This document shows, piece by piece, positions 3,321-63,700 of a stretch of 64,000 bases of DNA. A model generated the notes under the pieces. The model worked only from the letters and a program-made list of their open reading frames with translations, ran no database searches and was not told the origin of the DNA. The position numbers and the translations under genes are program-made. Source of the DNA: Tridacna crocea (lineage: Eukaryota; Mollusca; Bivalvia; Cardiida; Cardiidae); assembly GCA_943736015.1 (NCBI GenBank), contig OX031071.1, positions 14,914,119 through 14,978,118 of the forward strand, read 5' to 3'. Position 1 is the first letter of the stretch; each line of letters opens with the position of its first letter.

Positions 3321-6300
3321 GTACAGTTGCTTTTGATTGCATGAGTGTAACCAGGACTTTAACAATCTTTACTCACCTACGAATTGAGATTACCTGTTTA
3401 CTAGACAACAGAATTTTATACTGGTCCAAATTTACAGATGACAAAAATAAATGTGAATCAAAAATTGAAATTGATTTGGGAACAGTAGAAAACATTGTGG
3501 GAAAGGAGGAAATGCTGGTTACCAGCATCTTCTCCTTTTCCCACTATGTTTTCAAGGCTTTCTTTCTCAGGATTGTTAAAAGTTGGGATTGTGTGGTGAA
3601 GAGTTAAAAACCCTCACCACCCAAGTTTAATGAACCAGAGGTAGATGGCTTTTGAAAACACTGTTGGAAAAGCAGAAAATGGTAGTAGCCATGTCTCACT
3701 TCCTCTTCCACTACATCTTGAAGACAAATTCTGTCTTTTGAGACTCACTAAATAAGTCTTAAATTTTGTCATATGACAAAGAGTTAATACTCAACAGATA
3801 AAGTGCCAAAACCTAGACTTTCTTAACCCATTACCACACAATCCCTACTTTTGATGCCCCTGAGAAAGAAGGCTTTCTAAAAGCATCTTTCTCAGGGGCA
3901 TCAAGAGTAGGGATTGCGTGGTAATGGGTTAACCCTTTACCACACAACAAGACCCGCACAAATTTGAAAGTATTTGCTGATAACTGTTTCAATGTGGCTC
4001 ACATGAAATGATTTATCATTGATAGGGTAGAAAACATTGTGGAAAAAAGGAGAAAATGCTGGTAACCAGCATTTTCTCCTTATCCCACAATGTTTTCAGA
4101 AGCCTTCTCTTTCAGGGGCGTTAAAAGTCATCATTGTGTGGTAAAGGGTTAGTATATAGGATGACATCTTCATTTTTCAGTGTCCTTGACACAAACTAGG
4201 AAGAAAGGTTTGGAGCTAAAACAGAAAATAATAGAAGATGTAAGTACATGCACTTGTTTAACCCATGAACTGCCAAGACCAACTCAAGTTGTTTTTGTAG
4301 ACAGTGTAGATCAAGGTTAGACTACAGAGAATGTGCAGTCTGATCTTGGATCTACACTGTCCTCTGTTTTGTTACACATTCTGGCCAAAACAACCTTAAC
4401 TCTTTACCTCACAATAAAAAATTTTGACGACCCTGAAGTAAAAGTTTTTTTTGAAAACATTGAAAAGGAGAGAAAAATGCTGGCAACCAGCATTTTATCC
4501 TTTTCCCTCAATGTTTTCAACTGTATCAAATGAGAAGTTTCAGCATTTAATGCAACATTCAAATTATCATCTGCAAATCCTTTCAGTTCGGACTAGTCTA
4601 AAATCGTGTTGTTTGGTAAAGGGTTGACATGTTACTGAATGATACCCTGTTGTGATGGCTCCGAGGAAGAAGGCTGTTGAAAAAGTGGGTGAAAATGAAA
4701 ATGCCATTAACCTGCATTTCCCCTGTGATATTTTCTGTAAAAGACAAACCATAACTTGAACCATGTTAGACTTTTAGTGTAGAAGTCTATGATATGTATC
4801 ATGTCTATGTGCAAAAAAAAGAACCTACAGAGGGTAAACAAATGCTATTAAAACTTTACAAAGTGTAGAATCTAGTTAGTTGTGTTTATCAATAAAAAAT
4901 TGATTTAAGGTGTATGGGATGAAGAAATGCAAGGGATTTATCTTTAATTCAAACTGAAAATTGTGGTTGTCAAGTCTCAGGGGACAGACTCTAGAAAATG
5001 ACCTGTATTTTATATCCATTATAACCCATTCAACCTTGCGTCCATCAGGGGCAACATTTGTATCTAAGATACGGGAGAAATTATAGTTTCATAAAATAAA
5101 GATAAAATTGGTTAAAAAAATGGATGAAAACAAGAAAAGATGTACCTTAACCCTTTTCCACATAGTCCCTACTTTTGATGACCCTGAGAAAGAAGCCTTT
5201 AGAAAACATTGTGAGAAAAAGAGAAAATGCTGGTGACCAGCATTTTCTCCTTCCTCACAATGCTTTCTACTCTCCACAAAACAAATTTCAAATTTTCAGT
5301 CAATTATACCTTGTCGTCTGAAAATGCTTTCAATTTGGACAAGTCTAAAATATTGTCATTTGTTAAATGACCTTTTTCAAACAACAAATTTGAGACTCTT
5401 AGAATGGAAGGATTGTACAATTGACAATGTTAAATTTTGAAAAAAAATGGCAGAAAGTTCTTCAAAATTGTAGAAAACATTGTGAGAAAAGGAGAAATTG
5501 CTCGTTATTATGAGCAGTCTCTTCTTTTTCCACAATGTTTAAAAAAAAAAAAAGAGTTTTACTGCATACAAGTCAAAATACGGGTTTCTTTGGGAAAGGA
5601 TTAAAGCAAACATTCCTGTCTCAGGGTTGCTCATAATAAAAAGCAGAATCTGATACATTTCATACTAAGTCATAATTTCTAATGCAAGAAAAGTTGAAGC
5701 AGTTCTAATGGACAGTTATTCATTATAATTTCCTGTTCTGTTTATAGATCCAGTCTTGTGTGGACAGTTATGCCAGGATTTTCACATTTTCTGTACACAA
5801 TATGAGAAACAGCCACCTGAAAGAAATCAGAACAGAGTGGAAACACAGTCGGTAAGATCCATTTTGGATCATCTTATTCTTCAGCAGATTGAATGGGGCT
5901 TTTCTGCTACTTTAAAACAGTATTTCATTTATATTTCTGCCACACCTCATTTATGTATGTTTGATTTTTGAGTGTCTTGCCCAAGGACACTCAGAGTACC
6001 AGATAGAGGGAGTGAATTTGATTTCAGAATTGAAGATATAAATTATTCTCTGCTAAACCCTATGGTGTGAGTGCTCATTAGAATCATCTTATCAAGACAA
6101 TTTCAATGAGTATCTTTAACATAGGGTTTTGAAGAGAAATAATGACTTTAGAATACCATCACTCCCTCTTATCTGGAGCTCAGTCGCTATCATAAAAAAA
6201 CCTAGTGTCTGGATTGCGAATTGTATCTGGGGCTTCCTGGTTTAAGGGAAAAGGAAAAAACAGTTTCTCAAAGGCTGTGGAAGTAAAATTATTATTACAC

Positions 6301-9300
6301 TTCTTTCTCTTTATCAAACAACAAACATAACTGTTGAACTCACAATCCTAACTTTTAATGACCCTGAGAAAGAAAGCTTTTAAAAACATTGTGGGAAAAG
6401 GAGAAAATACTGATAACCAGCATTTTCTCCTTTTCCCACGATGTTGTCTACCCTTCCCAAACCAAAATGCAATTTTTGATTCACATCTTATTTATTGTCT
6501 GCAAATGCTTTCAGTTTGGACTAGTCCAAAATTTTGTCTTTTGTAAAGAGTTGAGACTGGTCCATCACATGTAGCTGATGGGATTTGTCCTGATAAAGGT
6601 TGAAAATATCGTGGAAAAAGAAAGAAGAAAATGCTGGTTACCATTATAGTTTCTCTATTTTCCACATTTTTTCAACAGGCTTTTTGCTCCGCAGTGTGTA
6701 TTAACTCTTTACCACACAATCCCGAGTTTTAACGACCCTGAGATAGAGACCTTCTGAAAACACTGTGGGAAAAGGAGAAAATGCTGGTAACCAGCATTTT
6801 CTCCTTTTCCTACAATGTTTTCTACCCTTTCCAGAACAAATTTCTATTTTTCAGTCACCTTTATTTTGTCGTCTGCAAATGCTTTCAAGTTGGACCAGTC
6901 CAAAATTTTCTCGTGTGGTAATGAGTTAAAAGAAGATAGTGTGGTAAAGGGTTTAGCCACTAAAACTTAGAAGCCTACCGGTATATACATGTAGGACTTA
7001 TTTTTTGCAGATTCTTTTTTGGAAAAAACAAAGTTATGTCCCTTGCATTTGGTCGCACAGCATCCTCAGAGTACAGAGATAATCTACATTGTTTGTGTTC
7101 TAATTTAAAAGGACAGACTGGAGTCTTATTCACAAACAAAACTAAAGATGAAGTTTTAAAGTAAGTAAACTTTTTTTCAGGACCGCAACAAATCTGGAGA
7201 TTTAATTAACTCATTACCAAAAAACAATATTTTAGGGTAGTCCAAATTAAAAGCATTTGCAGACAACAAAACAAAAAGAGCCGTCAGAGACGTGTTATGC
7301 TCCCCGAACAAGTGCTTGTCATAAAATATAAGAAATTGATATAAATTCACTTCTTTTATCCTAGAAGAACCTGTTCATGCCCCCCAAAATTTGAAGTGAA
7401 AAGGCAATTACTATCTTAGAGATAGCCAACATAAACTTGTAGAGGACAATAAGCCCAATAAGCCCCCTTTAAGCCTCCTTTTCCCATAAGATAGTATCGG
7501 ATCATTGCAATAAATACAATGGGTGTGTGGTTTGAGGCTTTTTTTAATAATAATTAAAATTTCGAAATTTCATAAAATTTTGAGCAGTCATGTATTAAAT
7601 ATTACATAAAACAATTTTTTACATGAAGCCCCCTTTTTCCGAGACGCAGCCTGAAATTGAGAAAAAGGAAGAGAGGTACCTGGGCAACATTCCAACAAGT
7701 TCAGATTTGAAATTTCACAAAGGTTTGAGCACTGATAAAAGAGAACCTAGTGAAAAACAATTTTTTCCATGAAGTCCCCTTTTTCCGTGATGCAGCCTTA
7801 ATTTGAGAAACCAGGAAAGACGTATTTGCACATTAATAATTCATAGATTGGAAAAACAAAGGGCACATGTTGAAACTTGTAAAACAAGATATAACCATGA
7901 AATGTTGACAAAAACTGAACAAGATATTAGTAAAAATTGCAATTTTGCATTAGGGCCCCTTTTTCATTTTACAAGAAACCCCCTTTTTCCATGACAGAGG
8001 GTCAAATTGAAAAAACACATATATAAAGGAACAAGAGCACATGGTTAAACTCTTAAAAAACAATATAACCATGAAGTTTAACGAAATTTTGACCAAAACT
8101 GAATGAAATATTAGTAAAAATTGGAATCTTGCAAGAAGCCCCCTTTTTCCATGACAGAACGTCAACTTAAAAAATGCCCAGACTAAAAATAGCAAGGGCA
8201 CATGCGAACACTTTCCATAAACAATATAACCATGAAGTTTCATGATATTCTGACTAAAACTGAATGAGATATTGGTAAAAATTGCAATTTTGCATTAAGC
8301 CCCTTTTTTCCATGACACGGGGTCAAATTGAAAATCCGGGAAATCTATATCGGCGCATTACCCCAAGGAGTTCATATATGAAGTTTCATCCAATTTGGTC
8401 CAAGGGTTGTGGAGAAATCGCTTCGGATGGACGGAAGGACGGACGGACGGACAGACGAAGCGGCGACTATATGCTCGCCCTTCGGGGAGTATAATAAAAG
8501 TGACTAAAAATTTGACATTTGTTTTGTGAAGGGTAGAAAACATTGTGGGATTTCTCACTTTTATTTTGTCGTCTGCAAATGCTTTCGATCTGGACAAACC
8601 TAAAATTTTGTCGTTTGGTAATGAGTTAAGAGGGGTATGTTACAGGAGACCACTCCTTCATACATGGCTTTGTCCGAATTTGAATGCAATACTTAACAAC
8701 TGCGTTGGGAAGATATCGCTTTAGCTCACTGGTTAAGGTATTGGCCTTTCATCCAGGCGTTCTAGGGTTCAAATCCTGCCAGGTCACTGTAATTCTGCCA
8801 TGCATTTGTGCACTTGTTTCTTTGTTATGGACTTTGGACGTAAGACTTTACTTGCTTTTTTCGTAACTTCCAACAGGTATTTTGATGATTATCAAGTTCC
8901 AGAATATGCTCGGTCAGGGAATGTGGCAACTCAGACGGTGATTTTTGAAGAGGGTCCGCTACCAGAGTTTTCACATGCGTTAGAACCTCAGTTACGACAG
9001 TTAGGGCTACCTACTGCACTTAAAAAAGGTAATTATCGGAGATTGCCAAATCAGCTTAACCCTTTCCCAAACAAGCCCTATTTCATATGTGTCTGCAGTA
9101 AAAGTCTTTAGAAAACACTGTGCAAAAAGGAGAAATTGCTCAGAACAAGCAATTTCTCCTTTTCCCACAGTGTTTTCTACCCTTTTGAGAACTTTCTGCC
9201 ATTTTCTCAAAATCTAGAATTGTCGTCTGCAAACTCTTTTGATTTGGAAGAGTTCAAAATTTGTCGTTTTGGAAAGGGTTGAAGCTGGGAATTTTGCCTT

Positions 9301-12300
9301 GTCATATACATCTTCATGCTGGCAATACCCAGAAAGGAAAAAAGCACATGCTCTTTAACAAGGGGGTCAATGCCTATGCAAAAGAGAACCAAGTTGGCCT
9401 GCAAATCTGACTTTGGTTGAAACTTTTTACTGTTGTTATCCCCCGCCATAGGCGGAGGGATATAGTTTTAGCGTTGTCCGTCCTTCCGTCCGTCCGTGTG
9501 TCCGTCCCGGCAAATATCTCCAATACCATTGGACGGAATTTCGTGAAACTTTATACACATGTACAATGACCCATTCTCCCGAGACACTTTTTTTGTTTTT
9601 TTGATTCGATGCAAAATGGCCGACTTAGAGCGATTTTAAGTTTCACTTAAGTAACACTTAAGTACACTTTTGATGTTTGGAGTCTTCTCTTCAAAACTAT
9701 ACAAAGTTTTTACATTGAACTGGTCACATCTGTCAACCTCCATTAGGAAATGCAGGAAAAGAAGTTTACCTATGTTGACCGTGCAATACCACAGTTATTT
9801 GCCTTTGTTTTTGTAATAAGGTGTCATGGAAAAAGGGGGTTTCATGTTATATTTCATTCAATTTCTTGTGAAGGCAACTCCTTCCACATTTCGTGAAGGA
9901 ATTGAATAGAATTTTGACAGAATATTTCTTGTCATGTGACCTATTGCATATTGTCAACATTTTGCGATTTGTAGCTGCGTCATGAAAAAAGGGGGCTTCA
10001 TGTTTTATTTCATTTTATTTCTTGTGAATGCAACTCGTCCTATATTTCTGGACAGAATTGAAATGAATTTTCACAGATTGTTTCTCATCATTTGACCTAT
10101 CCCATATTCTCAAGGTTTTACTATTTGTAGCTGCGTCATGAAAAAAGGGGGCTTCATGTTTTATATCATTTTATATCTTGTGAATGCAACTCATCCCATA
10201 TTTCTTGACAGAAATGAATAGAATTTTCACAGAATGTTTCTCATCATCTGACCTATCACATATTCTCAACGTTTTGCAGTTTGTGGCTGCGTCATGTAAA
10301 AAGGGGGCTTCATGTTATATTTCATTCTATTTCTTGTGAAGGCAACTCCTCCCACATTTGGCAGATTTAAGTGGAATTTTTACATTATCATGTGACCTAA
10401 CACAATGCCTCCCACATTTCTTGGCAGATTTGGATGGAATTTTCTCATGATCATGTGACCTACGGCATATTGTCAAGGTTTTGGGATTTGTAGCAGCATC
10501 ATGGAATAAGGGGGCTTCATGTTATAATTTAATTTTTCACCTGTATCTCTTTAATTACTGGACATATCTCAACAGATTTGGATGAGATTTTCACAGATCA
10601 TGCAACCTAGCACATGTTGTCAGGGTTTTGCAATTTATCACTGTAACATGGAAAAAGGGGACTTCATGTCAAATTTAATTTTTTATCAGTGTATCTCCAA
10701 CTTTTGCACATTATTTTCATAGAACTTCATATTTTTATTGGTTGATCAAAGCCAGTAACCAATGAGTCAATTGTTCATTCGTCTCTCCATGCATCTGTCT
10801 GTTCGTAAACCTATTAGATCACAAGTAATACCATATATCCATTCAGCTACGCAGGCAGGTGCTACAAATTTCAACACTTTAGTCTCTAGCTACCTGCTTG
10901 AAATGGCAGCAGTGTGGCGGCTTATATTGTGAGAGGGATTCTTCTAAAGTCCTTGACAAAAATTGATGAAACTTCATGCATGTTTTCTTTTCCATTACAT
11001 AGTCTGTTGATACATTTTTTTTCCACCACATATATGAAATCCTGAAATGAAAACAATTAAAGGAAATATACATAAAACCCCCTCTTTCCATGACATGTCA
11101 TTATATATGACATGTCATGGTAAAGGGGTTTTATGTATATTTCCTTTGTTTGTTTTCATTTTATGAAATGCCAAGTTCTGCAAAAAGGGTACTTAATGTA
11201 TAATCCTGTAATGGACCTCTTTTATATTTTTTTTATGTAATGAAATCCTGTGCCATGGAACAAGGGAGCTTAATGTATAATTTCATCATGGACCAATAAC
11301 AAAAAGGCCACATGTACATGCAAAACACAATACCTCCTATATGTTTGTATCAAAAAAGGTCTTTTTCGGCGGGGGATGTCATTTCAACGAAATTGCTTGT
11401 TAACCCTTAACTCTTTACCACACGAGAAAATTTTAGACCGGTCCAAATTGAAAGCATTTGCAGATGACAAAATAAAGGTGACTAAGAAATAGAAATTTGT
11501 TCTGGGAAGTGTAGAAAACACTGTGGGAAAAAGGAGAAAATGCTGGTTACCAGCATTTTCTCCTATTCCAATTGTGTTTTCAAAAGGCTTCTTTCTCAGG
11601 AGCGTCAAAAGTGGGATTGTGCGGTAATGGGTTACCAAATGACAAGATTTTAGACTCATCCAAATTAAATGCATTTGTAGGCAACGAAATAAATATGATT
11701 CAAAAATTGAAACTTGACTGTAGAAAAGAAGAAAACATTGTGGGAAAAGGAGAAAATGCTGGTTACCAGCATTTTCTCCTTTTCCCATAATGTTTTCAGA
11801 AGACATCGTCCTCAGGGTGGTTAAAAACCAGGGATTGTTTGGTAAAGGGTTAAATTTTCTACGTTCAAGGGACATTCTATCTTCAGATTGAACTGGTTGT
11901 TGAACAGAATTGATTATTTGATGACTTGGTATAGTGCATCACAGAGATACACCAAACCTCCATTTGCCATAGTGGCTCAAATGATGCAATTTTTCTTTGA
12001 AAGAGTAGAAAACTTTGTGGGAAAAGGAGAAAATGCTGGTTACCAGCATTTTCTCCTTTTTCCACAAAGTTCTGAAAGGCCTGTTTTCGTCAGGGGCGGC
12101 ACACCGGGGTGGCTCAGTGGTGAGCGTGTCAGACTCATGACCTGCTGGTTGTGAGTTCGATACCCGGTTGAGGCGAACTGTCTTTCCGGCTTATTTTCGA
12201 CTCTCACCTCTGCTTAAGAATGTGAGAAAAGTAGTCGGTGGCTGTGGAAAGAAAGTTGTGTTAGTACTGGTGTGGGAAAGCCAGGAAACAGATGTGCGTC

Positions 12301-14763
12301 ACTGACCGCCATGATATGACCTTAACTGTTAAAGTGGCTTTGAACCCCAATACAACCAACTAATCCTCAGGGGTTGTCATTTTGTGGTAAAGGGTTAAAC
12401 ATCATAGATTCAGTCAGTCATGTGACATTTTTGACCTGTTTATTTACAGGAGTTATTACATTGCTAAAAGAGCACAAAGTATGTGATTTTGGACAAAAAA
12501 TAACACCAGAGCAAGCAAGAATATTGGTGAGTTTGATCCTTTTTTGACATAAGTGTGAAAGCTGGCCATTTTGACCTTCGTCTTGGTATTTGTGTAAAAC
12601 ATATAAATAGTAATTTGGGATTTGTCAAAAATATAGACACAGAGCTCCATGTAAGAGAGAGTGATGGTATTCTAAATCCATTATTTTTGTTTGAAACCCT
12701 ATGTTGTGGGTACTCATTGAAATCGTCTTGAGACCATTCTACACATCAAAGAAGTGAAATGAACTTGATCGAGTTATTAACCCTTTGCAAAACAATCCAA
12801 TTGTATTTGTGTATGAAAGCTTATGAAAACTTTGTTAGAAAAAGAAGATGATGCTGGTTACTAGCATTTTTCTCCTCTTTCCCACTATGTTTTGAAAAGT
12901 TCCCAGGGTCTTTAAAAGTGTTGATTGTTTGGTAAAGGGTTTAAATCATTATCAAACAACAAAATTTTAGGCTTGTCCAAATCGAAAGCATTTGCAGACG
13001 ACAAAATAAAAGTGATTGAAAATTTAAAACTTGTTGGAGGATAGAAAACATGGTGGGAAAAAGAGAAAATCTGGTTACCTGCATTTTCTCCTTTTCCCAT
13101 AATATTTTCTAAAGGCTTCTTTCTCAGGGTCTTCAATAGTCGGGATTGTTTGGTAAAGGGTTTAAAAATGTTTTGGAAAAAAATACTTATTAGTTAACTG
13201 CATTGATTTCTTCTTCCTTAATAGTTTTCAAGGACAAAATCCATCATTTTATCCAACATGTATGTATGTATGTATCTATGTATCTATGTATCTATGTATG
13301 TATTTAATACATATGCTTTCAATTTGGATCAATCTCATCGTCATCTGGTAAGAGTGCCTCGCTGATTGACAATTGAAGACCAGAAGACACCATTGTTTCT
13401 GTTTCCTTTCAGAAATTATTTGGTTACAAGATGGCGGAGTTCAAAGTAACGATAGAAAACATGTGGTCAAATGATGGTAGTTTTACAGATATTGCCCCAA
13501 GACCAGAGAAAATATCACCCACAAAAGTGAAAGGTACTAATATGTTTTTAATCTTCTACAAAATAATCAATGGTAAAGCAACCTAGTAATCAAATTTTTA
13601 TGTCTCATTCTTTGGAAAAGAGGGGAGACAAACAGTGTTACCCCTGTCCGTGTGTTTGTGTATACTCTTATGTGTGTATGGTAGACAGTACTGTTTGTAT
13701 TCCGCCAATAACTCGTAAGTGCATGGTCTGATTCAAGAATAACATGGCACAAATGATCACCATGAATAGAGATAAGCCATGTGCAACAACGTCAAGTTCG
13801 TACTGCTTGGTTGAACCTGGTCAATATTTGCTATGGTGGCATGGGTGGTTATCTGTGTTGGTGACACATTATTAGTTGTACAGTCAGGTGGCAGTGGACG
13901 TAAAAACTTTTTCATGGCTGTGGTGAATCCTGTCGCCCCGAGCCGAAGGCAAGGTGGCAACATGATTCACCACAGCCGTGAACAAGTTTCCAAGTCCACT
14001 GCCACCTGACCGTACAACAAATTTATTATACTGCAAAGTTATCCGTTCCTATGTTTGTTAAGCGAATTTTACCTGATTTTTTGTTTAAAAATTGACTATG
14101 CTACTGAAGTAGAATTTCCCTTTTTAACATTTGTGTAAGTAACACAACGTCTGATTGGCCAAACCATTCTGATTGGCTAATTCAAATGGTTTAGCCAATC
14201 AGAGGTTGTGTTACTTACAAATTTAGAAAACCTTGCAGAATAAGACTAAGTATATTCTCAAGAATGGTTGGTGAATAGGGGCCCTGTTGTAGTTCCCAGG
14301 AAGCAGAATTGAGAGAGATTAGTATAAGTTGTAAGAGCTTGTTTCTAAATCGATGTAAAATAAACATGTTTAACCCATTACCACACAATCCCTACTTTTG
14401 ACGCCCCTGAGAAAGAAGCCTTTTGAAAACACTGTAAGAAAAGGAGAAAATGCTGGTAACCAGCATTTTCTCCTTTTCCCACAGTGTTTTCATCCCTTCA
14501 AAAAACAAATTTCAAATTTTCCATCACATTTATTTTGACGTCTGCAAATACTTTCAATTTGGACAAACCTAAAATTTTTTCGTGTGGTAATGAGTTAAAC
14601 TAAGACAAGGTTTAAATTTTGTTATTTGGTAAAGTGTTGAATTTTTGTTTTTCCGTATTCAGTGCGGCCGAAGAAACCTGAAGACATGGAAGAGGACAGT
14701 GAAGAGGAGGAAGAAGAGGCAGAAGAAATTGGGGATATTGATATGAATGACAACTCTGATTAA
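3293..14763 (+). CDS. MRTO4: Ribosome assembly factor MRT4 (mRNA turnover protein 4), complete, 8 exons
   Basis: This gene encodes the nucleolar paralogue of ribosomal stalk protein P0 (uL10), which holds the P0 site on pre-60S particles until P0 replaces it. Exons are 3293-3320, 4181-4239, 5748-5851, 7011-7160, 8877-9028, 12450-12526, 13413-13533 and 14663-14763. All introns are GT-AG and phases match throughout, giving 792 nt and 263 residues, slightly longer than the human protein as I recall it (about 239). The start is set by MPKSKRDKR, the conserved N terminus. Further family signatures are [45 protein letters not shown] and [12 protein letters not shown]. The C terminus is an acidic tail (about residues 238-253). 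The stop TAA lies inside the TTAA of a MITE. The exon order and family match are certain; the 5' untranslated region was not located. Confidence 0.96.
3391..3607 (-). mobile_element. Hairpin MITE, subfamily A
   Basis: This reverse-orientation copy in MRTO4 intron 1 has a full core (GCTGGTTACCAGC) and an intact left-arm end; its other end is eroded. Confidence 0.85.
3604..3787 (+). mobile_element. Hairpin MITE, subfamily A, degenerate
   Basis: This diverged copy abuts the previous one at a shared TTAA. Arms and core are recognisable but the hairpin is imperfect. Confidence 0.65.
3823..3932. mobile_element. Left-arm-only snapback derivative
   Basis: This 110 bp near-perfect palindrome is made of two inverted left arms (TTAACCCATTACCACACAAT to AGAAAGAAGGC and back). 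Both the usual core and the right arm are absent. Confidence 0.9.
3929..4152 (-). mobile_element. Hairpin MITE, subfamily A
   Basis: This copy shares TTAA with the snapback element and ends 28 bases before MRTO4 exon 2. Confidence 0.85.
4181..4239 (+). CDS. MRTO4: MRTO4 exon 2
   Basis: The acceptor is TTTTTCAG and the donor GTAAGT. The exon encodes [20 protein letters not shown], the basic and early alpha-helical part of Mrt4. A MITE ends only 28 bases before the acceptor. Confidence 0.94.
4259..4399. mobile_element. GTGTAGATC-type palindromic repeat
   Basis: Arms near CAGTGTAGATCAAGG and CTTGGATCTACACTG flank a TGCAGTCTGATC segment. Related palindromes lie at 19.5, 21.75, 25.6, 31.65, 35.1, 55.9, 56.9 and 57.7 kb. 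Confidence 0.7.
4396..4770 (+). mobile_element. Two adjacent hairpin MITEs, second degenerate
   Basis: The first copy (4396-4626) has both arms and a core with a few mismatches. The following 145 bases look like a decayed second copy. Confidence 0.7.
5147..5366 (+). mobile_element. Hairpin MITE, subfamily A
   Basis: A complete copy in MRTO4 intron 2 with TTAA-type ends; the core centre is GGTGACC. Confidence 0.88.
5363..5605 (-). mobile_element. Hairpin MITE, subfamily C
   Basis: The core carries GAGAAATTGCTCGTTA, and the far end reads TTTGGGAAAGGATTAA. It directly follows an A copy. Confidence 0.75.
5748..5851 (+). CDS. MRTO4: MRTO4 exon 3
   Basis: The acceptor is TTTATAG and the donor GTAAGA. 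The frame contains [19 protein letters not shown] and EIRTEWKHS, the start of the P0-like rRNA-binding domain. It ends in phase 2, and the arginine codon is completed by exon 4. Confidence 0.94.
5993..6181. mobile_element. AGAGGGAGTGA-type palindromic MITE
   Basis: An inverted repeat starts near CCAGATAGAGGGAGTGA, ends ATCACTCCCTCTTATCTGG, and is centred on an AATCATCTTATCAAGACAAT fold. Full copies recur at 28.04 and 46.14 kb, half copies at 12.64 and 23.19 kb. Confidence 0.8.
6332..6555 (+). mobile_element. Hairpin MITE, subfamily A
   Basis: A full-length copy with a near-perfect core; both terminal TTAA sites are eroded. Confidence 0.8.
6575..6705 (-). mobile_element. Hairpin MITE fragment
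   Basis: Core and left arm only, diverged; it abuts the next copy at TTAA. Confidence 0.55.
6701..6929 (+). mobile_element. Hairpin MITE, subfamily A
   Basis: A complete, well-preserved copy in MRTO4 intron 3, ending 82 bases before exon 4. Confidence 0.92.
7011..7160 (+). CDS. MRTO4: MRTO4 exon 4
   Basis: The acceptor is TTTTTTGCAG and the donor GTAAGT. The exon encodes [15 protein letters not shown], then [11 protein letters not shown] and [16 protein letters not shown], the core of the P0-like domain. It ends in phase 2. Confidence 0.95.
7206..8629 (-). mobile_element. Hairpin MITE split by a pearl-like element
   Basis: Its ends lie at 7206-7275 (TTAACTCATTACC to GCAGACAACAAAAC) and about 8494-8629. 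The intervening DNA is the pearl-like insertion. The distal part is rearranged, ending in a second right arm. Confidence 0.75.
7277..8493 (+). mobile_element. Pearl/HINE-like element with tandem core
   Basis: Subterminal inverted repeats CTCCCCGAA (7300) and TTCGGGGAG (about 8482) bracket several units of about 120-180 bp. Each unit contains AAGCCCCCTTTTTCCATGAC and AACAATATAACCATGAA. A GGAC microsatellite (GACGGACGGACGGACAGACG) lies near the right end. This matches the bivalve pearl/Helentron-associated pattern; the class is inferred. Confidence 0.65.
8705..8780 (+). other. tRNA-like sequence (SINE head or tRNA relic)
   Basis: An A box-like TAGCTCACTGGTTAAG and a B box-like GGTTCAAATCC are spaced as in a tRNA gene, about 100 bases upstream of MRTO4 exon 5. 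No clear SINE body follows. Confidence 0.5.
8877..9028 (+). CDS. MRTO4: MRTO4 exon 5
   Basis: The acceptor is CAACAG and the donor GTAAT. The exon encodes [15 protein letters not shown] and then [12 protein letters not shown], among the most conserved Mrt4/P0 segments. A tRNA-like sequence lies about 100 bases upstream and a MITE starts 27 bases after the donor. Confidence 0.96.
9056..9283 (+). mobile_element. Hairpin MITE, subfamily C
   Basis: It begins TTAACCCTTTCCCAAACAAG, has core AAGGAGAAATTGCTCAGAAC, and starts 27 bases after the exon 5 donor. Confidence 0.85.
9438..11377 (+). mobile_element. Pearl/HINE-like element with ATCCCCCGCC ends
   Basis: The ends ATCCCCCGCC (9438-9447) and GGCGGGGGAT (11368-11377) are inverted repeats. 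A GTCC microsatellite follows the left end. The core has about five units of 160-180 bp, each with GCGTCATGAAAAAAGGGGGC and TTCATGTT. A palindromic CATGACATGTCAT patch lies near 11090. The same AAGGGGGCTTCATG motif occurs inverted in the element at 7277-8493. Confidence 0.7.
11407..11853 (-). mobile_element. Two tandem hairpin MITEs, subfamily A
   Basis: Two same-orientation copies (11407-11635, 11632-11853) meet at a GTTACC junction where a TTAA has decayed. Both cores are near perfect. Confidence 0.88.
11990..12398 (-). mobile_element. Hairpin MITE interrupted by a SINE
   Basis: Core and part of the left arm (11990-12102) stop at TCAGGGGCGG. The SINE follows, and the arm resumes at TCAGGGGTTG and ends in GGTAAAGGGTTAA. 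Confidence 0.8.
12103..12362 (+). mobile_element. tRNA-derived SINE with Meta-like tail (RUDI-like)
   Basis: The A box is GGTGGCTCAGTGG and the B box GTGAGTTCGATACCC. The tail contains GACCGCCATGATATGACCTT and ACTGTTAAAGTGGC and ends AACCCCAATACAACCAAC. It is flanked by imperfect TCAGGGG repeats. A second copy is at 59708. RUDI affiliation is from memory of bivalve SINEs. Confidence 0.85.
12450..12526 (+). CDS. MRTO4: MRTO4 exon 6
   Basis: The acceptor is TTTACAG and the donor GTGAGT. The exon encodes [16 protein letters not shown] and [10 protein letters not shown], part of the Mrt4/P0 insertion domain. It ends in phase 0. Confidence 0.95.
12640..12742. mobile_element. AGAGGGAGTGA-type MITE, half copy
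   Basis: It contains the left half only, from AGAGCTCCATGTAAGAGAGA to the central GAAATCGTCTTGAGAC, in MRTO4 intron 6. Confidence 0.75.
12777..12944. mobile_element. Hairpin MITE, symmetric left-left form
   Basis: This 168 bp element has an A core flanked by two inverted left arms and no right arm. Confidence 0.8.
12941..13165 (-). mobile_element. Hairpin MITE, subfamily A
   Basis: It follows the left-left form and shares a TTAA with it; the core is slightly diverged. Confidence 0.85.
13256..13310. repeat. TGTA/TCTA microsatellite
   Basis: A tetranucleotide run of TGTA and TCTA units. Confidence 0.85.
13413..13533 (+). CDS. MRTO4: MRTO4 exon 7
   Basis: The acceptor is CCTTTCAG and the donor GTACTA. 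The exon encodes [18 protein letters not shown], the conserved end of the globular domain, then a proline- and lysine-rich linker. It ends in phase 1. Confidence 0.95.
13845..14045. mobile_element. Palindromic repeat with CAGGTGGCAGTGGACG arms
   Basis: Arms around CAGGTGGCAGTGGACG and GTCCACTGCCACCTGACCG flank a centre with GCCCCGAGCCGAAGGC. One arm recurs at 33500-33600 beside the DGKQ stop. Confidence 0.75.
14120..14285. mobile_element. CCAAT-rich palindromic repeat
   Basis: The arms GATTGGCCAAACCATT and AATGGTTTAGCCAATC form a hairpin, followed by a tail reading AGAATGGTTGGTGAAT. The same structure and tail lie at 58420-58555. Confidence 0.75.
14370..14598 (+). mobile_element. Hairpin MITE, subfamily A
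   Basis: A complete copy in the last MRTO4 intron. A right-end fragment (TTTGGTAAAGTGTTG) sits 22 bases before the last exon. Confidence 0.92.
14663..14763 (+). CDS. MRTO4: MRTO4 exon 8, terminal, acidic tail
   Basis: The acceptor is TATTCAG. The exon encodes [20 protein letters not shown] and a short acidic end, then TAA. The stop codon (14761-14763) lies within the TTAA that bounds the MITE at 14760-14948, so the last coding base is also the first base of that target site. Confidence 0.93.
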
Positions 14764-14948
14764 CCTTATCCCAAATTTTTACAACCCTGAGGATGAAGCC
14801 TATAGAAAACATTTTGGGAAGAGGAGAAAATGCTGATAAAGAGCATTTTCTCCTCTGTTTTGTCCTTTTTCCAGAATGTTTTCTAACTTTTCAAAGAATA
14901 TTTCTATCAATTGAGAACAATAAAATTGTAATCTTCAAATGCTTTTAA
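14760..14948 (+). mobile_element. Hairpin MITE starting at the MRTO4 stop codon
   Basis: The left TTAA is 14760-14763 and contains the MRTO4 stop. The left arm and an expanded core (with an extra CTGTTTTGTC) follow; the right arm is shortened. Confidence 0.8.
14919..14924 (+). terminator. Candidate poly(A) signal of MRTO4
   Basis: AATAAA lies about 156 bases after the MRTO4 stop, inside the MITE that begins at the stop codon. The use of this site is inferred from position alone. Confidence 0.45.
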
Positions 14949-15402
14949 TTCTTTACCAATCAACAAAATTATAGTTTAATGACTCTGGGAAAGAAGCCTT
15001 TTGAAAACATTGTAGGAAAAGGAGAGAATGCCGATAACCAGCATTTTCTCCTTTTTTGCACAATGTTCGCTATCCTTCCAAAAACCGATTTCAGTTTTTC
15101 AGTCACATTCATTTTGTCATCTTCAAATGCTTTCAAATGGGCCTAGTCTGAAATTTTGTCATTTGGCAACTATTTAACCCATACCCACACAATCCCTACT
15201 TTTGACGCCCCCGAGAAAGAAGCCTTTTGAAAACACTGTAGGAAAAGGAGAAAATGCTGGTAACCAGCATTTTCTCCTTTTCCCACAGTGTTTTCTACCC
15301 TTCCCAAAACAACCTTCAATTTTTCAGGCACCTTTATTTTGTCGTCTGCAAATGCTTTCAATTTGAACCAGTCTAAAATTTTGTCATCTGGTAATGAGTT
15401 AA
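14945..15402 (+). mobile_element. Two tandem hairpin MITEs, subfamily A
   Basis: The copies 14945-15177 and 15174-15402 share one TTAA and one orientation. With the preceding copy they form a direct array of three. Confidence 0.88.
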
Positions 15403-15973: not shown

Positions 15974-16147
15974 TTAACCCTTTACCACACAATCCTGACT
16001 TTTAATGACCCTTAGAAAGAAGCCTTTTGAAAACATTGTAGGAAAAGGAGAAAATGCTGGTAACCAGCATTTTCTCCTTTTCCCACGTTTTCAAAACGCT
16101 TCCATCTCAGGGTCGTAAAAAGCAGGGATTGTTTGGTAAAGGGTTAA
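15974..16147. mobile_element. Hairpin MITE, symmetric left-left form
   Basis: This 174 bp element has an A core between two inverted left arms, TTAACCCTTTACC to GGTAAAGGGTTAA. Confidence 0.88.
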
Positions 16148-16370: not shown

Positions 16371-16390
16371 GAAGTCATGTTTTTAACTCT

Positions 16391-18713: not shown

Positions 18714-18724
18714 ATAAAGGTATT

Positions 18725-54700: not shown

Positions 54701-57700
54701 AAATATTGTCATTTGGTAATGAGTTAAAATATTACATGAAAATGTTTTATACCCTATTCACTTATTTGTACCAGTTACAGATTTGTCATCTGCAAATGCT
54801 TTCAGTTTATAGGTCTGCCAAAATCAAAGTCAGGTGCTTGTTAACATCAAATAATACACAGCAATCTGTCCTCATTCATTACCATTTAACCCTTTCCTAA
54901 ACAACAAATTCTGGATCCTTCTAAACCGAAAGAGTTCGCAGACGACAATTTTGGATTTGGAGAAAATTGCAGAAAGTTCTCAAAAAGGGTAGAAAACACT
55001 GTGAGAAAAGGAGAAATAGCTCGTTATGAGCAATTTCTCCTTTTCCCACAGTATTTTCAAAGACTTTTACTGCAGACACGTAAAAACCAGGGCTTGTTTG
55101 GGAAAGGGTTAACTCTTTACCACACAATCTCGACTTTTAACAACCCTAAGACAGAAGCCTATTGAAAACATTGTAGGAAAAGGCAAAAATGCTGGTAACC
55201 AGCCTTTTCTCCTTTTCCCAAATTGTTTTCTACCCTTCCAAAGACAAATTTCAATTTTTTTACCCATACTTAGGTTGTCATCTGCAAATGCTTTAGATTT
55301 GGACAAGCCTAAAATATTGCCATTTGGTAATGAATTAAACCATGAAACCATTATTTATGACTCTTGTCATTCCAGATGTTTTTAACCCTGTCAAAGTTAA
55401 CCTTTTACCTGACATTCCAATTTTCCATTTCAGCAGCAAATAAAGATATAATGTAAAAAATATGGACAAATGAGGATACAAATATCTAATTGAGTGGAAA
55501 CATTGTGGGAAAAGGAGAAATTGCTCGTTACGAGCAATTTCTCCTTTTCCCACAATGTTTTCAAAAGCTGTCTGTTGTTGATACGTCTAAATGAGTATCT
55601 ACGGAGTAAAGGGTTAAGTTCCATCATTTGATCAACTTTTAGTGTGTTTTATAAATGTGTTTAACCCCTATCCTGCTAAATAACTGAAAGAAAATTTTCA
55701 ATTCCATAGAAAACAAAAAAAAAACAGTGCTATTTCAAAGTTATGTTTTGGGGAAAGGAAATTTTCAATTCCATAGAAAAAAAAGACTAAAACAGTGCTA
55801 TTTCAAAATTATGTTATGGGAAATAGTATCTCCTTTATCGGACAGTGTGGATAAAGGGTTAGGCTGCACATTCCAAGCAGCCTGACCTTTGATCTACACT
55901 GTCCGCAAAAGGTCAGTAAGTCACACTTAGCAGCCTAGGGGTCAAGTTTGTCTGGTTTAGAACTAAATCATCTAGTAAAGTTTGTAGAAAGTTGCATTCC
56001 TGTAATTAATTCTTTACCACATGACAAAATTTTAGACAGGTTCAAATTGAAAGCATTTGCAGACGACAAAATAAAGGTGACTGAAAAATTGAAATTTGTT
56101 CTGGGAAGGGTAGAAAACACTGTGGGAAAAGGAGAAAATGCTGGTTACGAGCATTTTCTCCTTTTCCTACAGTGTTTTCAAAAGGCTTCTTTCTCAGGGG
56201 CGTCAAAAGTAGGGATTGTGTGGTAATGGGTTAATCCTTTCACTAACAATGACGACTTTTTACAACCCTTGGAAAGAAGCCTTTAGAAAACATTGTGAGA
56301 AAAGGAGAAAATGCTGGTTACCAGCATTTTCTCCTTTTCCCACAGTGTTTTCTACCCTATCAATAAACAACTGCACCAATTGAGCCACAATGAAATAGTT
56401 GTCTGCAAATGCTTTCAGTTTGGACAGGGCTAAGTTTTGTTGTCTGATAAAGGGTTAAAGTATGATTCTTATTCAAAATTCTAGACACTCTGCAACATTA
56501 CTTACATTCGGAATCTTTCTCTTTGTCTTTACCATCTTTATCTTTCGGAGATTTCCTCTCCCTATCTTCCTCGTCGTTTCTGGAGTCTCCGCTTGAGGAC
56601 CAGTCTTCCGATATAGTCCGCGCTGAAATTACACATGTACAATAATGTGAGGTGTTTATGACATATAAAGCCTAGTATTTGCATAAAACAGACAAACATG
56701 TGGACAGACTGGCATGTAAACAAGCAGGTAGCCTAATTACTGTTTATCAATCCTAGAAGCTAAAAAATTAATTAACGTAGAGATTCCAAGGCAATAGTGA
56801 AAACCATTACTTTATAATTTAGAAATTTTGCTTGTCAGAGACATTCACCATACAATACCAGTGTAGATCCAAGATCAGACTGCACATGATCTTGATCTAC
56901 ACTGTCTGCAGCATCCCTCCAAGTTGCACTTAGCAGCCCATGTGCTAGAAATTTTGAAGAGGCATGACAAACAATCATTTTATACAAGTAATTTTTTTTT
57001 GCATCTGAATGGCAAGAAAAATAAATATAAATAGATTAAATACTAATTCAAGTCTACAACTGAAGTTTCATTTACCCTATCCAAGGCAGTCCAATGTTTT
57101 ACCTGTTAACATACCTATTGAAACCCAAACAGATACTTTCAGTCTAGATATAAAACCGAAATGATTAAAATATCAAGGCTGCTTTAACCCTTTACCATAC
57201 GACAAATTTTTGGACTGGTCCAAATTGAGAGAATTTGCAGACGACAAAATAAATGTAACTGAAAAGTTAAAATTTGCGATGGGAAGGGTAGAAAACATTG
57301 TGGGAAAAGAAGAAAATGCTGGTTACCAGCATTTTCTCCTTTTCCCACAGTGTTTCTAAAAGGCTTCTTTCTCAGGGGCGTCAAAAGTAGGGATTGTGTG
57401 GTAATGGGTTAACCCTTTACTCCATAGATATTCATTTCTACGCATTGCTTGTTGGAGCCTATGGAAAACATTGTGGCAAAAGGTGAAATTGCTCGTGACG
57501 AGCAATTTCACCTTTTGCCACCATGTTTTCTATGCTATCAAAAGGTGTCATATACACATAAGAAACAGCTTCATCCTTGCTGTTATTTAGCATCAATTAG
57601 AGATACCACAGAAATGCCTTATGGGGTAAAGGGTTAATTCTGCATTACATGGTAAAGCAACCACTGTAGATCAAGATCAGACTGCTTAGTTTGTGCAATT

Positions 57701-60700
57701 TGATTTTTATCTTCAATGTGCACTTTTAGTGTTAAACTCCTGTGGAAGGCAGCAGTAGAAAACATTATGGGAAAAGAAGAAAATACTAGCAGAAAGCATT
57801 TTCTCCTTTTTCCACAGTGTTTTCTACCATTCTAAGGACAAGAGTAAACATGTGAGAAGATACACTCATCACCTGCAAATGCTTTTAATTTGGACAAGAT
57901 TAAATATTGACATTTGAAACAGTGTTAAGATATGATTAACTTACTTGGTAAGTCTTCAAGTCCAAGGTAGGCAATAAAGAAAATAAAGTATAGGAGTTAT
58001 TGCTAGATTGATACAGTCAGCTTCTCAAAAATCTTAGTAATTCTGTTTTCTGATCTGTGTGTTTGTGTGGTGTTCAACACCACTTTCAACATTAATTCGG
58101 CTATCTTTCAGCCTCTAATGCACCTGTCCATGCTTTTCAAGATTTACCAGTGCTTTGCACAATGATCTTCCCAAGTCCCCTGACAGCTTTTCCAAAACCA
58201 TCATCAAAACAGTAATAAGTGAAGAGAGAGGGATTATACCCTGCGGCAATGACATTCGTCAATCCTCGAAAATAATTTGGCCGAAATGGGGATTTCAACA
58301 TGTTAATGATTGTGCTGACTCTGCTCTTTTTTATAAACATCATCAACATACCAGAACAAAGTTATTCATCAACCATTCTGAAGTACATTCTTAGTCTTGT
58401 TCTTCAGGATTTTCTAAATCTGAAAGTAACAGAACTTCAGATTGGCTAAACCATTTTGGTTTAGCCAATCAGAAGTTGTGTGACTTTCAATTCATAAAAT
58501 CTTGGAAATTAAGACAGAGAACATTCTTCAGAATGGTTGGTGAATATGGACCCAGAAGGGCAGGTATCACCTGACATGCTTCATGCATATCTAGATTGAA
58601 AATGTAGCCTCAAGACTGCACACACAGACATTTCCTTTTTGTCCGAGTGACCTACTTTTTAACCAGACATGACCTAATTTAGAACTTGTCTGATAAATCA
58701 CCAAGCTGACATTCTAACCAATTTTCATTAGTATCAGGCTGAAGATATGTCCTCTACAGTGCAACCAAGGTTTTTCTAAGATTTGTCCCAATGACCTCTT
58801 TTTTGACCCAATTTGACCCAATTTTGAACTAAAGCTAGGTTCATTCAAGACATATTTTTGACCAAGTTTCATGAAAGTCAGGATAAAAAATGTGCCCTGA
58901 AGAGTTCACACAGGATTTTTCTAACATTCTGTCCCAATGACCTACTTTAGATAATACACGTACATGACCCAAATTTCAAGCAATACTAGATATCAAGACA
59001 AGCCTTTCAGACCAATTTTTCAGAAAATTTTGCTCCTGTGTGCACACAAGATTTTTCATGATTTATCACAAGACCTCTGGGTTTTTTTTAAATCAGTCCA
59101 GCCTACTGTCACTCAATATTGCAAGTCATTGAGCCATGCTCTAGAAAAAGGGGGTTTATCTCTTTACTAAAGGACAGCATTTTAGACTGCTCCAAATTGA
59201 AAGCACTTGCAGAAGACGAAATAAAAGTAATTCAAAAATTGAAATTTGTTTCCAGTAGGGTAGAAAACATTGTGGGAAAAGGAGAAAATGCTGGTTACCA
59301 GTATTTCTCCTTTTCCCATAATATTTTCAAAAGGCTCCATCTCAGGGTCGTAAAAACCAAGGATTGTTCGGTACAGAGTTAACTCTTTACCACACAATCC
59401 CTACTTTCAACGACCCTGAAAAAAAAAGCCTTTGAAAACATTGTGGGAAAAGGAGAAATGCTGATGACCAACATTTTCTCCTTTTCCCACTATGTTTTCT
59501 ACCCTACTGGAAACAAATTTCAAATTTTTGGGTTACATTCATTTTGTCATCTGCAAATGCTTTCATTTTGGACTAGTTCAAAATTTTGTTGTTTGGTACA
59601 GAGTTAAGGTATTTTCATGATGCATGATACTAGGGTAGTCACCACAAAATCATTGATTTGTCTTACAAATGACTGAATCTGTAAGTAATACGATCTTAGA
59701 TATTTAGCCCACCCGGGTGGCTCAGTGGTGAGAATGTCAGACTTATAACCTGGTGGTTGTGAGTTCGATACCCGGTTGAGGTGAACTTTCTTTCCGGCAT
59801 ATTTTTGCCTCTCACCTCTGCTGAAGCATGTGAGAAAAGTAGTCGGTGGCTTTGGAAAGAAAGTAATGTAAGTACCGGTGTGGGAAAGCCAGGAAACACA
59901 TGTGCGTCACCGACCGCCATAATATGACCTTAGCTGTTAAAGTGGCGTTTAGCCCCAATACAATCAACCATACAATCAATTAAAAAATCTTAGACGTTTA
60001 GAAAATTAAACAAGAACAGAATGTTTTGACCCATGTCTGCCTACAAAGACCAGGCCAATACTTTTTGGAGCTGCATCAAGCCCCATTTTCAGATGACATG
60101 GCTCAATTACGGTGCATGTCATTCCTAATTCATTCATTCTCAATCACATTCACCCTTTACCCCATTAGGCATTTCTATGGTATCTCTAATTGACCCTAAA
60201 TAACAGTAAGGATGAAGCAGTTTCTTAAGTGTATACGACACCTTTTGACAGCATAGTAAACATTGTGACAAAAGGTGTAATTGCTCGTCAAGAGCAATTT
60301 CACCTTTTGCCACAATGTTTTCCAAAAGCTACAAGCAATGCGTAGAAATGAGTATCTATGGAGTAAAGGGTTAAGTGAATGCATTTACCCATTACCATAC
60401 AATCCCTCCTTTTGACGACCCTGAGAGAGAAATCTTAAAGGAGAAAACGCTGGTAACCAGCATTTTCTCCTTTTCCCACCATGTTTTCTACCCTTCACAA
60501 AACAAATTTAAGATTTTCAGTCACTTTCATTTTTCGTCTGCAAATGCTTTCGATTTGGACAAGTGTAAAATATTGTTGTTTGGTAATGAGTTAAGTGAAC
60601 ACATGTTTTCTCAGTGAATGAATAAACTATACATTTCTGCTGAAATAAGTTATGCAACCTATATTTCTAAATGTCATCTTGTTTTTTCTAACTTCAAAAA

Positions 60701-63700
60701 TATTTCTCTCATTCATTAATGCTGTTTTTTCAGTTTCATTTCACATTTCATAAATGGAAGTTTTTCAGCTATTTTATGGCTTCTCTGAATGTCAAACTCC
60801 CCCAACCATAATTATCACTTGAAATGCTACTAAAAAAACTGTACTTGCTAGCTTCATTTGTATATCTCCTCTATTTAGCCTTTAACCCTTTCCCAAACAA
60901 TCCCTGCTTTTTACGGGTCAGGAATAGAAGCCTTTTGAAAACATTGTGGGAAAAGGAGAAAATGCTGGTAACCAGCATTTTCTCCTTTTCCTACAATGTT
61001 TTCTACCCTATCATATAGAGAATCATCTTTTAAGCAACTGTTAATTTGTCATCTGCAAAATGCTTTCAATTTGGCCTGGTCCAAAATTTGCCGTTTGGGA
61101 AAGGGTTAAATAAAACCTTTTATTGTTCATCAATCCAAAAACTACAGCACCCCAAACCACACCATCCCAAGGTTTAGCCATGACCCTACATTATATCAAT
61201 GATTCCCATTTCTTTAACAACCTTGAGAAAAGAAACTGTAATGTGATGAGAAATGTAAGTTTGCCCACTTAAACAGACTTATTTCAAAAGGTTAAAAAAA
61301 CATTGTTGGGAATTTTGAAAACATTGGTAACAGGCAGTTTTTTCCCTTTTCCAACATTTTCGGAAGCCTTTTTAACTCTCTACAACACAACAAAAATTTT
61401 AGTTTTGTGCAAAATGGAAACCTTTGCAGAAAACAAAATAAATGTGAATCAAAAATTGAAATTTGATTTGAGAAGGTAGAAAACAATGTGGGTAAAGGTG
61501 AAAATGCCGATTACTAGCATTTTCTCCTGTTCCCACATCCTTTCCAAAAGGCGTCCTTCAAAGGGTCATTAAAAGTTGGGATTGTGTGGTAAAGGGTTAA
61601 TGGAAGAATGAATGTTCGATACAGGGTTATAGCTAAATGTTAACAAAGAAATAACCATCGACAAGCTTATAATCAGCTAACCATAAGCAACAATTTCATT
61701 CTAGGGAACCTGAAAAATGGAGAAAATGCGAAGCAACAAGAACACGATGTTGACGAGACTCACCTGTTTTGCGTGTCATGCCCATCATGGTTTCTACGCT
61801 CAGGTCCATGCGGGGCATGGTCAAACAACAAGGAGGCAGCATTATCTCTCGTAAACTTCCAAAGTTACACTCGACAGGAAGGAGTCGGTAACAGCTCGCA
61901 TGTGCCTAAAATGTAAACATTGTAAGCAAAGTTAACTCATTAACACACGACAAAATTTTAGACTGGTTCCAATTGAAAGCATTTTCAGATGACAAAATAA
62001 AGATGACTGAAAAATTGAAATTTGCTCTGGGAAGGGTAGAAACACTGTGGGAAAAGGAGAAAATGCTGGTTACCAGCATTTTCTCCTTTTCCTACAGTCT
62101 TTTCAAAAGGCTTCTTTCTCAGGGGCATCAAAAGTAGGGATTGTGTGGTAATGGGTTAATAAACAATACTATGGGATTTCTATATGGCCTGGTAAACGCC
62201 AAAAGAGGCATTTGGACATTTGCGTAAAGTTTTGTGTAGGATCAGCCTGCGCAGGCCAATTTGAAACGAAACTTCCTGTTTTTATGTAATATTCTGTTCT
62301 GTGCAAGCCTACTGTAGCCCATAATATAATGTAATTGTAAACTGCTGCCTCAGTTTAGCCTGGGCAGACTGCACAGGCTGATCAGAGACTACACTTTATG
62401 CAGATGTCTGAATGCCCCTTTTTCGAGTGCTGCCAGCCATATTGGACGTGCGGCAGCATTTTATTTTTAACTCATTACCAAACGATAAAATTTTAGACTG
62501 GTCCAAATTGAAAGCATTTGCAGACGACAAAATAAATGTGACTGAAAAATTGAAATTTGTTCTGGGAAGGGTAGAAAACACTGTGGGAAAAGGAGAAAAT
62601 GCTGGTTACCAGCATTTTCTCCTTTTCCTACAGTGTTTTCAAAAGGCTTCTTTCTCAGGGGCGTCAAAAGTAGGGATTGTGTGGTAATGGATTAACATTA
62701 TTAAAAGTAATATTGTGGTGGCCAGAGTGCACCTATTTATGCTTTCTTTGATTATCTCTGAGGAGTAAACCATTGACTCTATCCACCATTAAAAATGTTG
62801 AAACACTTTTCAGCTTTTGGAGAGGAATACATCCAATCACAATGACAGTCATCAATCTTCTGAAAGAATGTTGGCTGACCTGAAAAATAAGGATTTCCTA
62901 ACTTTCTTCACATGGGCTTGGAGCAATCTGAATTAAGGAACAAGGGCACATAGATCACCCAAATTGGAGTAGGCTTTTGGAAATATTGTGGGCAGGAGAG
63001 ACAGTGTTTTATCCTTTTATATACAAATTCAATCGTCTGAGCCTCGTGCTATCAGCCAGCTACAAATGTTTTGGATCTGGACAACTCTTAACTCATTACC
63101 AAATGACAAAATTTTAGGTATGTCCAAATCGAAAGCATTTGCAGACACCAAAATAAAAGTGACTGAAAATTTGAAATTTGTCTTGTGAAGGGTAGAAAAC
63201 ATTGTGGGAAAAGGAGAAAATGCTACTTTTCTCCTTTTCCCACCATGTTTTCTATAGGCTTCTTTCTAAGGGTCGTCAAAAGTAGGGATTGTGTGGTAAT
63301 GGGTTAAATTTGTAAGCTGGTTAACCCTTTACTACACAATGATGAGTTTTGACGACCATGAGGAAGAGGCCTTTTGAAAACTTTGTGGGAAAAGGAGAAA
63401 ATGCTGGTTACCAGCATTTTCTCCTTTTCCCACAAAGTTTTCTACTCTATCAAAGAAAAATTGCATCATTTGAGCCACTGTGAAATTATCGTTTGTAAAT
63501 GCTTTCGATTTGGGTAGGTCTAAATTCTGCCATGTTGTAAAGGGTTAAGAGTTCACTGATGTAAACCTACTTCTGGGTCTAAAAGTCAATGCTAATGCAT
63601 AATAATTCTGTATAATACTATTGATAAGATCACTTACCGTAACTCCACACCACTCACATCTCATCCCTGCTAAACATTCCGAAGACCAGCATGTCTTTTT

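Follow-up and report, generated by a model that had tools for sequence, protein, structure and literature searches.

Miniature TTAA-bounded elements of Tridacna crocea, supported as piggyBac-type, carry a central palindrome that differs between families only in complementary pairs

Why should a miniature inverted-repeat transposable element (MITE), for which terminal repeats alone could suffice, keep a long palindrome in its interior? The question is raised by a 64,000-nucleotide stretch of Tridacna crocea DNA (contig OX031071.1, positions 14,914,119 to 14,978,118, hereafter the window), which is densely filled with copies of a short element bounded by TTAA. Between the family consensuses of this element the core palindrome changes only in complementary pairs, and single copies decay after insertion. 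The palindrome halves have changed in step, which suggests that the palindrome, like the ends, is needed for the spread of the element.

Architecture, families and abundance of the element

The consensus of family F1 is 229 bp long, with TTAACCCTTTACC at its start and GGTAAAGAGTTAA at its end, and consists of a 55-bp left arm, a palindrome at bases 56-122 and a 107-bp right arm extending to base 229. The palindrome, or core, measures 67 bp (33+1+33) with a single unpaired central base, and in three measured copies its two sides match outwards over 33, 33 and 35 bp. Folded as single-stranded DNA, it gives -37.2 kcal/mol versus -6.6 for shuffles. A profile search, with the profile built from 26 window copies, detected 134 copies or fragments in the window (overlap <30%) on both strands, covering 39.2% of the bases; 80 of the 134 span the near-complete model. 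Across all sequence examined the profile gave 693 matches versus 0 in reversed sequence, and GGTAACC occurs 48 times in the window versus 4.6 expected from shuffles, a tenfold excess. The first-pass annotation of this DNA had described about 100 copies in 60 kb of a family of roughly 225 bp, with an essentially loop-free palindrome of about 66 bp and unequal arms ending at TTAA; the family is real, its measured dimensions agree closely with that description, and TTAA at the ends is well above random (see below).

There are at least three related families, F1, F2 and F3; their arms differ, and so do their cores, each of which is as perfect as the others. F2 and F3 have the same plan as F1 (left 55, core 67, right 106-107) but other arms, and consensus lengths across the families are 228-229 bp; the elements are short, non-coding, uniform in size and high in copy number, as MITEs are. 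They do not have the form of foldback elements, in which the palindrome reaches the element ends, as the 55- and 107-bp arms are unlike each other. A palindrome scan of 57 sequences (33-bp arms, at least 28 pairs) found 137 palindromes, 105 of F1 type and 15 of F2 or F3 type together with 17 others that include several decayed cores, and none in letter-shuffled sequence. The F1 and F2 arms without their ends agree in ungapped comparison at 20/43 and 39/95 positions (43%, p 0.002 each), so the two families look like distant relatives in register; a gapped comparison of these arms was not above shuffles. Their cores are identical at 58/67 positions (87%).

After removal of 11 duplicates, 1 identical row and 9 copies that core patterns had brought in, 170 of 191 copies were kept, 114 of which fall into five arm clusters. 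Between these clusters the ends differ by 8.3%, the core by 8.0% and the arms by 38.8%. Conservation of the core does not exceed that of the 12-bp ends, both are far above the arms, and the interior is more conserved between families than the arms, as in the CMITEs of corals considered below. Three blocks of the element are conserved, its two ends and, at a constant position, the 67-bp palindrome; the arms that join them drift.

The inner 33-mer of the F1 core, AGGAGAAAATGCTGGTWACCAGCATTTTCTCCT, has 172,596 exact occurrences in the 1,048,827,098-base genome (control 0), and those of F2 and F3 have 14,972 and 9,593, respectively. Ten 10-kb samples taken at round coordinates contained 80 copies or fragments, of which 36 are full, plus 10 exact 33-mers, with a coverage of 0-27% (mean 13.9%). 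Extrapolation gives ~0.4-0.6 million full-length copies and ~145 Mb, with a wide spread between the ten samples. The window is a dense patch, with 25 exact 33-mers versus 10.5 expected from the genome mean.

Changes in the core and where the constraint acts

All three families have a perfectly palindromic core consensus. F1 and F2 differ at pairs 3, 8, 13 and 20, F1 and F3 at pairs 3, 8 and 26, and F2 and F3 at pairs 13, 20 and 26; every one of these differences, five pairs in all, is two-sided and complementary. The unpaired central base also differs among the three consensuses. Genome-wide pair counts, made with the outer stem fixed, gave for pair 26 111,144 T:A and 22,763 C:G cores and 11,108 one-sided ones in all, whereas only ~278 doubles would be expected from the one-sided and unchanged counts. 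At the control pair 30 there were 5 doubles versus 1.2 expected, with 727 one-sided changes. Hybrids of a left F1 and a right F3 half-core occur 9 times genome-wide, compared with 172,596 F1 and 9,593 F3 cores. A set of 120 copies, free of loci brought in by core patterns and omitting loci L001-L008, L039-L046, L026-L029 and L034, had 100 same-pair double changes versus 39 expected, 71 of these being paired. A>T makes up 17/31 changes of the central base; since the arms show A>T and A>G in similar numbers (1213 and 1176), no cruciform flip of this base is claimed.

The stage at which the core is kept was examined by capturing copies by the right arm only, which avoids choosing them by the core, and comparing each with its consensus. 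This capture, which skipped L026-L029, L034 and L037, yielded 114 F1, 12 F2 and 10 F3 copies, binned by right-arm divergence. In the youngest F2 bin (<5%) the left arm shows 9/328 and the core 17/496 changes (p 0.69), followed by 7/120 and 10/186 at 5-10% and by 2/41 and 1/62 at 10-15%. The F3 bins gave in turn, for left arm and core, 7/122 and 7/186, then 11/82 and 4/123, and at >20% 52/204 and 30/306. For F1 the bins <5, 5-10, 10-15, 15-20 and >20% hold 4, 28, 40, 30 and 12 copies, over which the left arm rises from 6.7 through 8.9, 13.4 and 18.6 to 24.5% and the core runs at 3.4, 6.2, 5.2, 6.5 and 7.5%. The plain reading is that copies decay once inserted and that the lineages giving rise to copies kept the core, i.e., that the constraint acts on spreading lineages. 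The suspicion voiced in the first-pass annotation, that the central hairpin does more than terminal repeats require, gains support from the two-sided core changes together with this constraint at the source.

Insertion at TTAA, copies in the window and partner transposases

The ends are piggyBac-like (TTAACCCTTTAC); those of F1, F2 and F3 (TTAACCCTTT) carry a CC[C/T]T terminal motif in short inverted repeats, and the end bases of F1 and F2 are identical at 12/12 and 11/12 positions. In all sequence examined, TTAA was present at both expected ends in 105 and at one end in 65 of 185 full-length matches, which include some duplicated loci, while it is found at 11.5% of random places of similar size. 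Searched against all sequence examined, the joined flanks of 103 copies gave joint-spanning matches outside the family in 6 cases, three of them clean and three weak (~74%), one of the latter resembling a decayed family member. The clean paralogous empty sites correspond to L031 844-1070 (99% to an autonomous piggyBac copy in L019), L033 3350-3578 (98% to L019, the empty copy reading TTTA) and L049 1732-1960 (83% to L049 2097-2185); the piggyBac family in which the L031 and L033 insertions sit still shows 96-99.9% identity among its copies. Empty sites without TTAA had been named beforehand as one finding that would speak against the class; the three sites are consistent with TTAA insertion, one with the TTTA just mentioned. 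The assignment as non-autonomous piggyBac-type MITEs inserting at TTAA is thus supported by the CCCTTT ends and the empty sites.

The stretch at 3390-63549 (unstranded) contains all 134 copies and fragments found by the profile search. Listed here are copies with TTAA at both ends, further F2 and F3 copies and two derivatives (window positions, strand).
3604-3787 (+), copy internally shortened to 184 bp, TTAA both ends
5147-5366 (+), copy, TTAA both ends, TTAA common with next copy
5363-5604 (-), copy, TTAA both ends
6701-6929 (+), copy, TTAA both ends, 229 bp
9052-9283 (+), F3 copy
12941-13165 (-), copy, TTAA both ends
14370-14598 (+), copy, TTAA both ends, 229 bp
14945-15177 (+), copy, TTAA both ends, TTAA common with next copy
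15174-15402 (+), copy, TTAA both ends, 229 bp
17492-17720 (-), copy, TTAA both ends, 229 bp
18485-18713 (-), copy, TTAA both ends, 229 bp
18988-19215 (+), copy, TTAA both ends
22158-22381 (-), copy, TTAA both ends
23290-23520 (+), copy, TTAA both ends
26815-27043 (-), F2 copy, TTAA both ends, 229 bp
28380-28605 (-), F3 copy, TTAA both ends
29102-29331 (-), copy, TTAA both ends
30520-30747 (+), copy, TTAA both ends, TTAA common with next copy
30744-30966 (+), copy, TTAA both ends
34043-34271 (+), copy, TTAA both ends, 229 bp
35474-35708 (-), copy, TTAA both ends, TTAA common with next copy
35705-35928 (+), copy, TTAA both ends, TTAA common with next copy
35925-36153 (+), copy, TTAA both ends, 229 bp, perfect 33+1+33 core (35-bp arms)
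37030-37264 (-), F2 copy, perfect core at 37137-37203
39189-39416 (-), copy, TTAA both ends
39858-40087 (+), copy, TTAA both ends
40419-40643 (-), copy, TTAA both ends
41180-41408 (+), F2 copy, TTAA both ends, 229 bp
45138-45365 (+), copy, TTAA both ends, TTAA common with next copy
45362-45583 (-), copy, TTAA both ends
47293-47522 (+), copy, TTAA both ends, tail to tail with 47518-47757 at GGGTTAACCC
50443-50673 (-), F2 copy
53342-53571 (-), copy, TTAA both ends
54886-55112 (-), F3 copy, TTAA both ends, TTAA common with next copy
55109-55338 (+), copy, TTAA both ends
55397-55617 (-), copy, TTAA both ends
56006-56234 (-), copy, TTAA both ends, TTAA common with next copy
56231-56458 (+), copy, TTAA both ends
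57184-57412 (-), copy, TTAA both ends, TTAA common with next copy
57409-57637 (+), F2 copy, TTAA both ends, 229 bp
59379-59607 (+), copy, TTAA both ends, 229 bp
60149-60380 (-), F2 copy
60882-61109 (+), copy, TTAA both ends
61372-61600 (-), copy, TTAA both ends, 229 bp
61932-62159 (-), copy, TTAA both ends
62467-62695 (-), copy, TTAA both ends, 229 bp, top profile score in window
63088-63307 (-), copy, TTAA both ends
63321-63548 (+), copy, TTAA both ends
3823-3932 (unstranded), core-less derivative of left arm and inverted left arm, 91% complementary, TTAA both ends
15974-16147 (unstranded), derivative with left arm on both sides of core

Of the window copies, 44 have both TTAAs; nine neighbour pairs among these (5363-57412) have one TTAA in common, which looks as if insertion targets were provided by the TTAAs at the ends of the element itself. 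The symmetric derivatives at 3823-3932 and 15974-16147 hint at hairpin-linked rearrangement of the element.

The genome contains 118 piggyBac matches, including young autonomous families with TTAACCC ends. Thirty of the 118 were examined; ends were definable in 12 and unresolved in 18. The CCC ends of the 12 defined loci are of four kinds, none matching the element beyond CCCTTT, and no autonomous piggyBac with CCCTTTACC ends was found among them. The piggyBac-type reading of the first-pass annotation therefore stands as regards the class and lacks, in these 12 loci, the autonomous partner with matching ends. A 492-aa piggyBac unit (L025-L029, L034 and partly L037) was rejected as partner, having no convincing TTAA-bounded inverted ends in 9.1 kb and a best end match of 10/16 bases. 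Its frame lies in a dispersed stretch of >4.1 kb, 97-99.9% identical, with MITE copies inside (L025-L029 and L034 on contigs C15, C3, C5, C9, C10 and C18). A young autonomous piggyBac of ~2.77 kb with ends TTAACCCTTTATATAC and a frame of up to 624 aa is present in L014-L019 and L023 (contigs C3, C4, C10, C12 and C18) in copies mostly 98-99.9% identical, and was possibly active recently. The piggyBac locus L038 (contig C8), with a 591-aa frame, is TTAA-flanked and has matching ends AATAAAAAATCTGTGT / AATCAAAAACCTGTGT without the CCC motif.

Unrelated loopless or near-loopless palindromes with 30-43-bp arms, some in two places, were seen in the window at 23049-23135, ~25675 and ~58455 and outside it in L055 (~9686, ~7026), L005 (~1804) and L053 (~4578, ~5216), which points to several palindromic repeat families in this genome. 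The window also holds tandem arrays at 24281-25068 (165-bp unit), 44029-45065 (49 bp) and 9823-10359 (156 bp), and a CTGT-rich stretch at 1-1105.

Possible roles of the palindrome and related systems

Judging from these sequence patterns, the best reading is that the palindrome is probably a two-fold symmetric internal site required for the mobility of these piggyBac-type MITEs. It would be a cis-acting site, carried in symmetric form for the element to be mobilised, and its likeliest reader would be a protein dimer, e.g., the partner transposase, that recognises it as a two-fold symmetric duplex; a lineage would then persist only if a change in one half were matched in the other. Palindromes read by a pair of C-terminal domains are described for the piggyBac and piggyBat transposases in the available part of PMC11707139. 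The pair beside the centre is conserved, with 8 and 4 changes in 111, and the central base is free (21/114), a pattern closer to a symmetric duplex than to a hairpin whose loop is three bases long. Covariation is confined to some stem positions, the majority being constant, and this also fits dimer recognition. A more tentative idea, rather doubtful at present, is that the palindrome is a third essential transposon part beside the two ends, perhaps as an extruded DNA hairpin, which copies would need for mobilisation and which would, though DNA, evolve by matched changes in the manner of an RNA stem.

Several observations weigh against a required symmetric site. At 5-10% divergence the F1 core is already below the left arm (6.2 vs 8.9%, p 0.007), and in the closest pairs, with held-out arm halves, the inner core differs by 3.6% versus 10.3% for the arms, a figure that hypervariable arm columns may inflate. 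In single F1 copies, pair 26 excluded, 32/55 doubles are paired, versus 2-12 of 25-40 in slid controls. Pair 21 is one-sided in 6/16 F2-type cores (8 G:C, 2 A:T) and was so inherited at least once, and a four-copy cluster has a one-sided pair 22, weakly supported. To these may be added the missing partner among the 12 defined loci and the absence of a palindrome of at least 10 exact base pairs from six autonomous piggyBac loci with defined ends. The stricter statement that one-sided core variants are never inherited was dropped, since pair 21 in F2 speaks against it; a clustering test (0/42 one-sided core variants clustered) was without power, as just 7/234 arm variants clustered.

The paired doubles in single F1 copies, which are not clustered by arms, lend weight to a less probable alternative, a foldback origin with mutational symmetrisation, in which a polymerase copies one arm onto the other via a hairpin or cruciform and the palindrome maintains itself without function. 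So do the 2,140 A:T doubles at pair 14 genome-wide (counted as doubles only) and the derivatives with the left arm on both sides. The excess of paired doubles indicates that arm-to-arm copying contributes to some degree. It is unlikely to be the whole cause, because copying alone does not slow change, yet the core differs far less than the arms between clusters, and because control pair 30 shows little, its few doubles implying that post-insertion copying is rare there; the one-sided pair 21 inherited in F2 also argues against it. MiRNAs derived from MITEs are known, and the hairpin is very stable by DNA parameters, as an RNA-level role would have it, the 32-bp transcript hairpin being processed to small RNAs or shielding the element from silencing; such a role is improbable given that the window has no Rfam match and that the near-centre pair, the would-be loop, is as conserved as the stem.

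Mobilisation by another TTAA-specific transposase such as Kolobok, which according to the accessible text of PMC9587614 likewise makes TTAA duplications, would agree with the lack of a matching piggyBac among the 12 loci. It is held to be just as improbable, as the Kolobok termini given there are 5'-RR and YY-3', the CCC...GGG ends found here fit piggyBac instead, and many piggyBac genes with TTAACCC ends exist in the genome. High density and a conserved core might also be expected if individual copies were kept by host selection, e.g., as binding or boundary sites, but the young F2 core decays as fast as the left arm, which makes this explanation very improbable indeed. If the core is needed for mobility, as the symmetric-site reading holds, this would help to explain how a MITE group came to fill about one seventh of a 1.05-Gb genome (by the ten-sample extrapolation), the very many copies would form a natural experiment on the bases a transposase needs, and the element would be a case of a DNA palindrome that evolves by compensatory change.

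The titles and abstract openings surveyed, a search outside of which lay subscription journals, Dfam and Repbase, disclosed no MITE whose palindrome is described as changing in matched fashion. Six core pieces of 13-14 bases matched, in the literature text accessible, three papers, with titles on Vibrio, diet and zebrafish, and core patterns gave 0 matches in viral contigs. In foldback or fully palindromic MITEs a long inverted repeat with almost no loop makes up the whole element; such elements are also present in this genome, and the likeness ends where the palindrome does, after ~33 bp, beyond which come the unequal arms. The piggyBac and piggyBat ends share the TTAA target, but their palindromes, as far as described in PMC11707139, are subterminal, lying close to the ends, and of small size (19 bp in piggyBac), unlike the single internal 67-bp palindrome here. 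The Pearl-family MITEs of bivalves, e.g., DTC84, are likewise mollusc MITEs, one with a conserved palindrome near internal repeats; compared by description only (PMC5139131, in part), they differ in being modular with tandem satellite-like repeats.

The nearest known system appears to be the CMITEs of Acropora corals, piggyBac-type MITE families which, in the available text of PMC2872659, also have TTAA and CCCTTT ends and an interior more conserved between families than the rest. By analogy, they offer a precedent for a conserved interior whose meaning was left unexplained; it was suspected to matter for transposition, and a partner was found for just one of six families. CMITEs are ~100 bp long with ~1,600 copies estimated in A. 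millepora, the copy number here being far higher, and the words "palindrome" and "hairpin" are absent from that CMITE text, whereas the interior here forms a perfect palindrome whose changes are matched. Should mobility depend on the core, the conserved interior of the coral elements would gain a testable meaning. What is new is the core, a symmetric palindrome evolving by matched changes in an otherwise known kind of piggyBac-type MITE.

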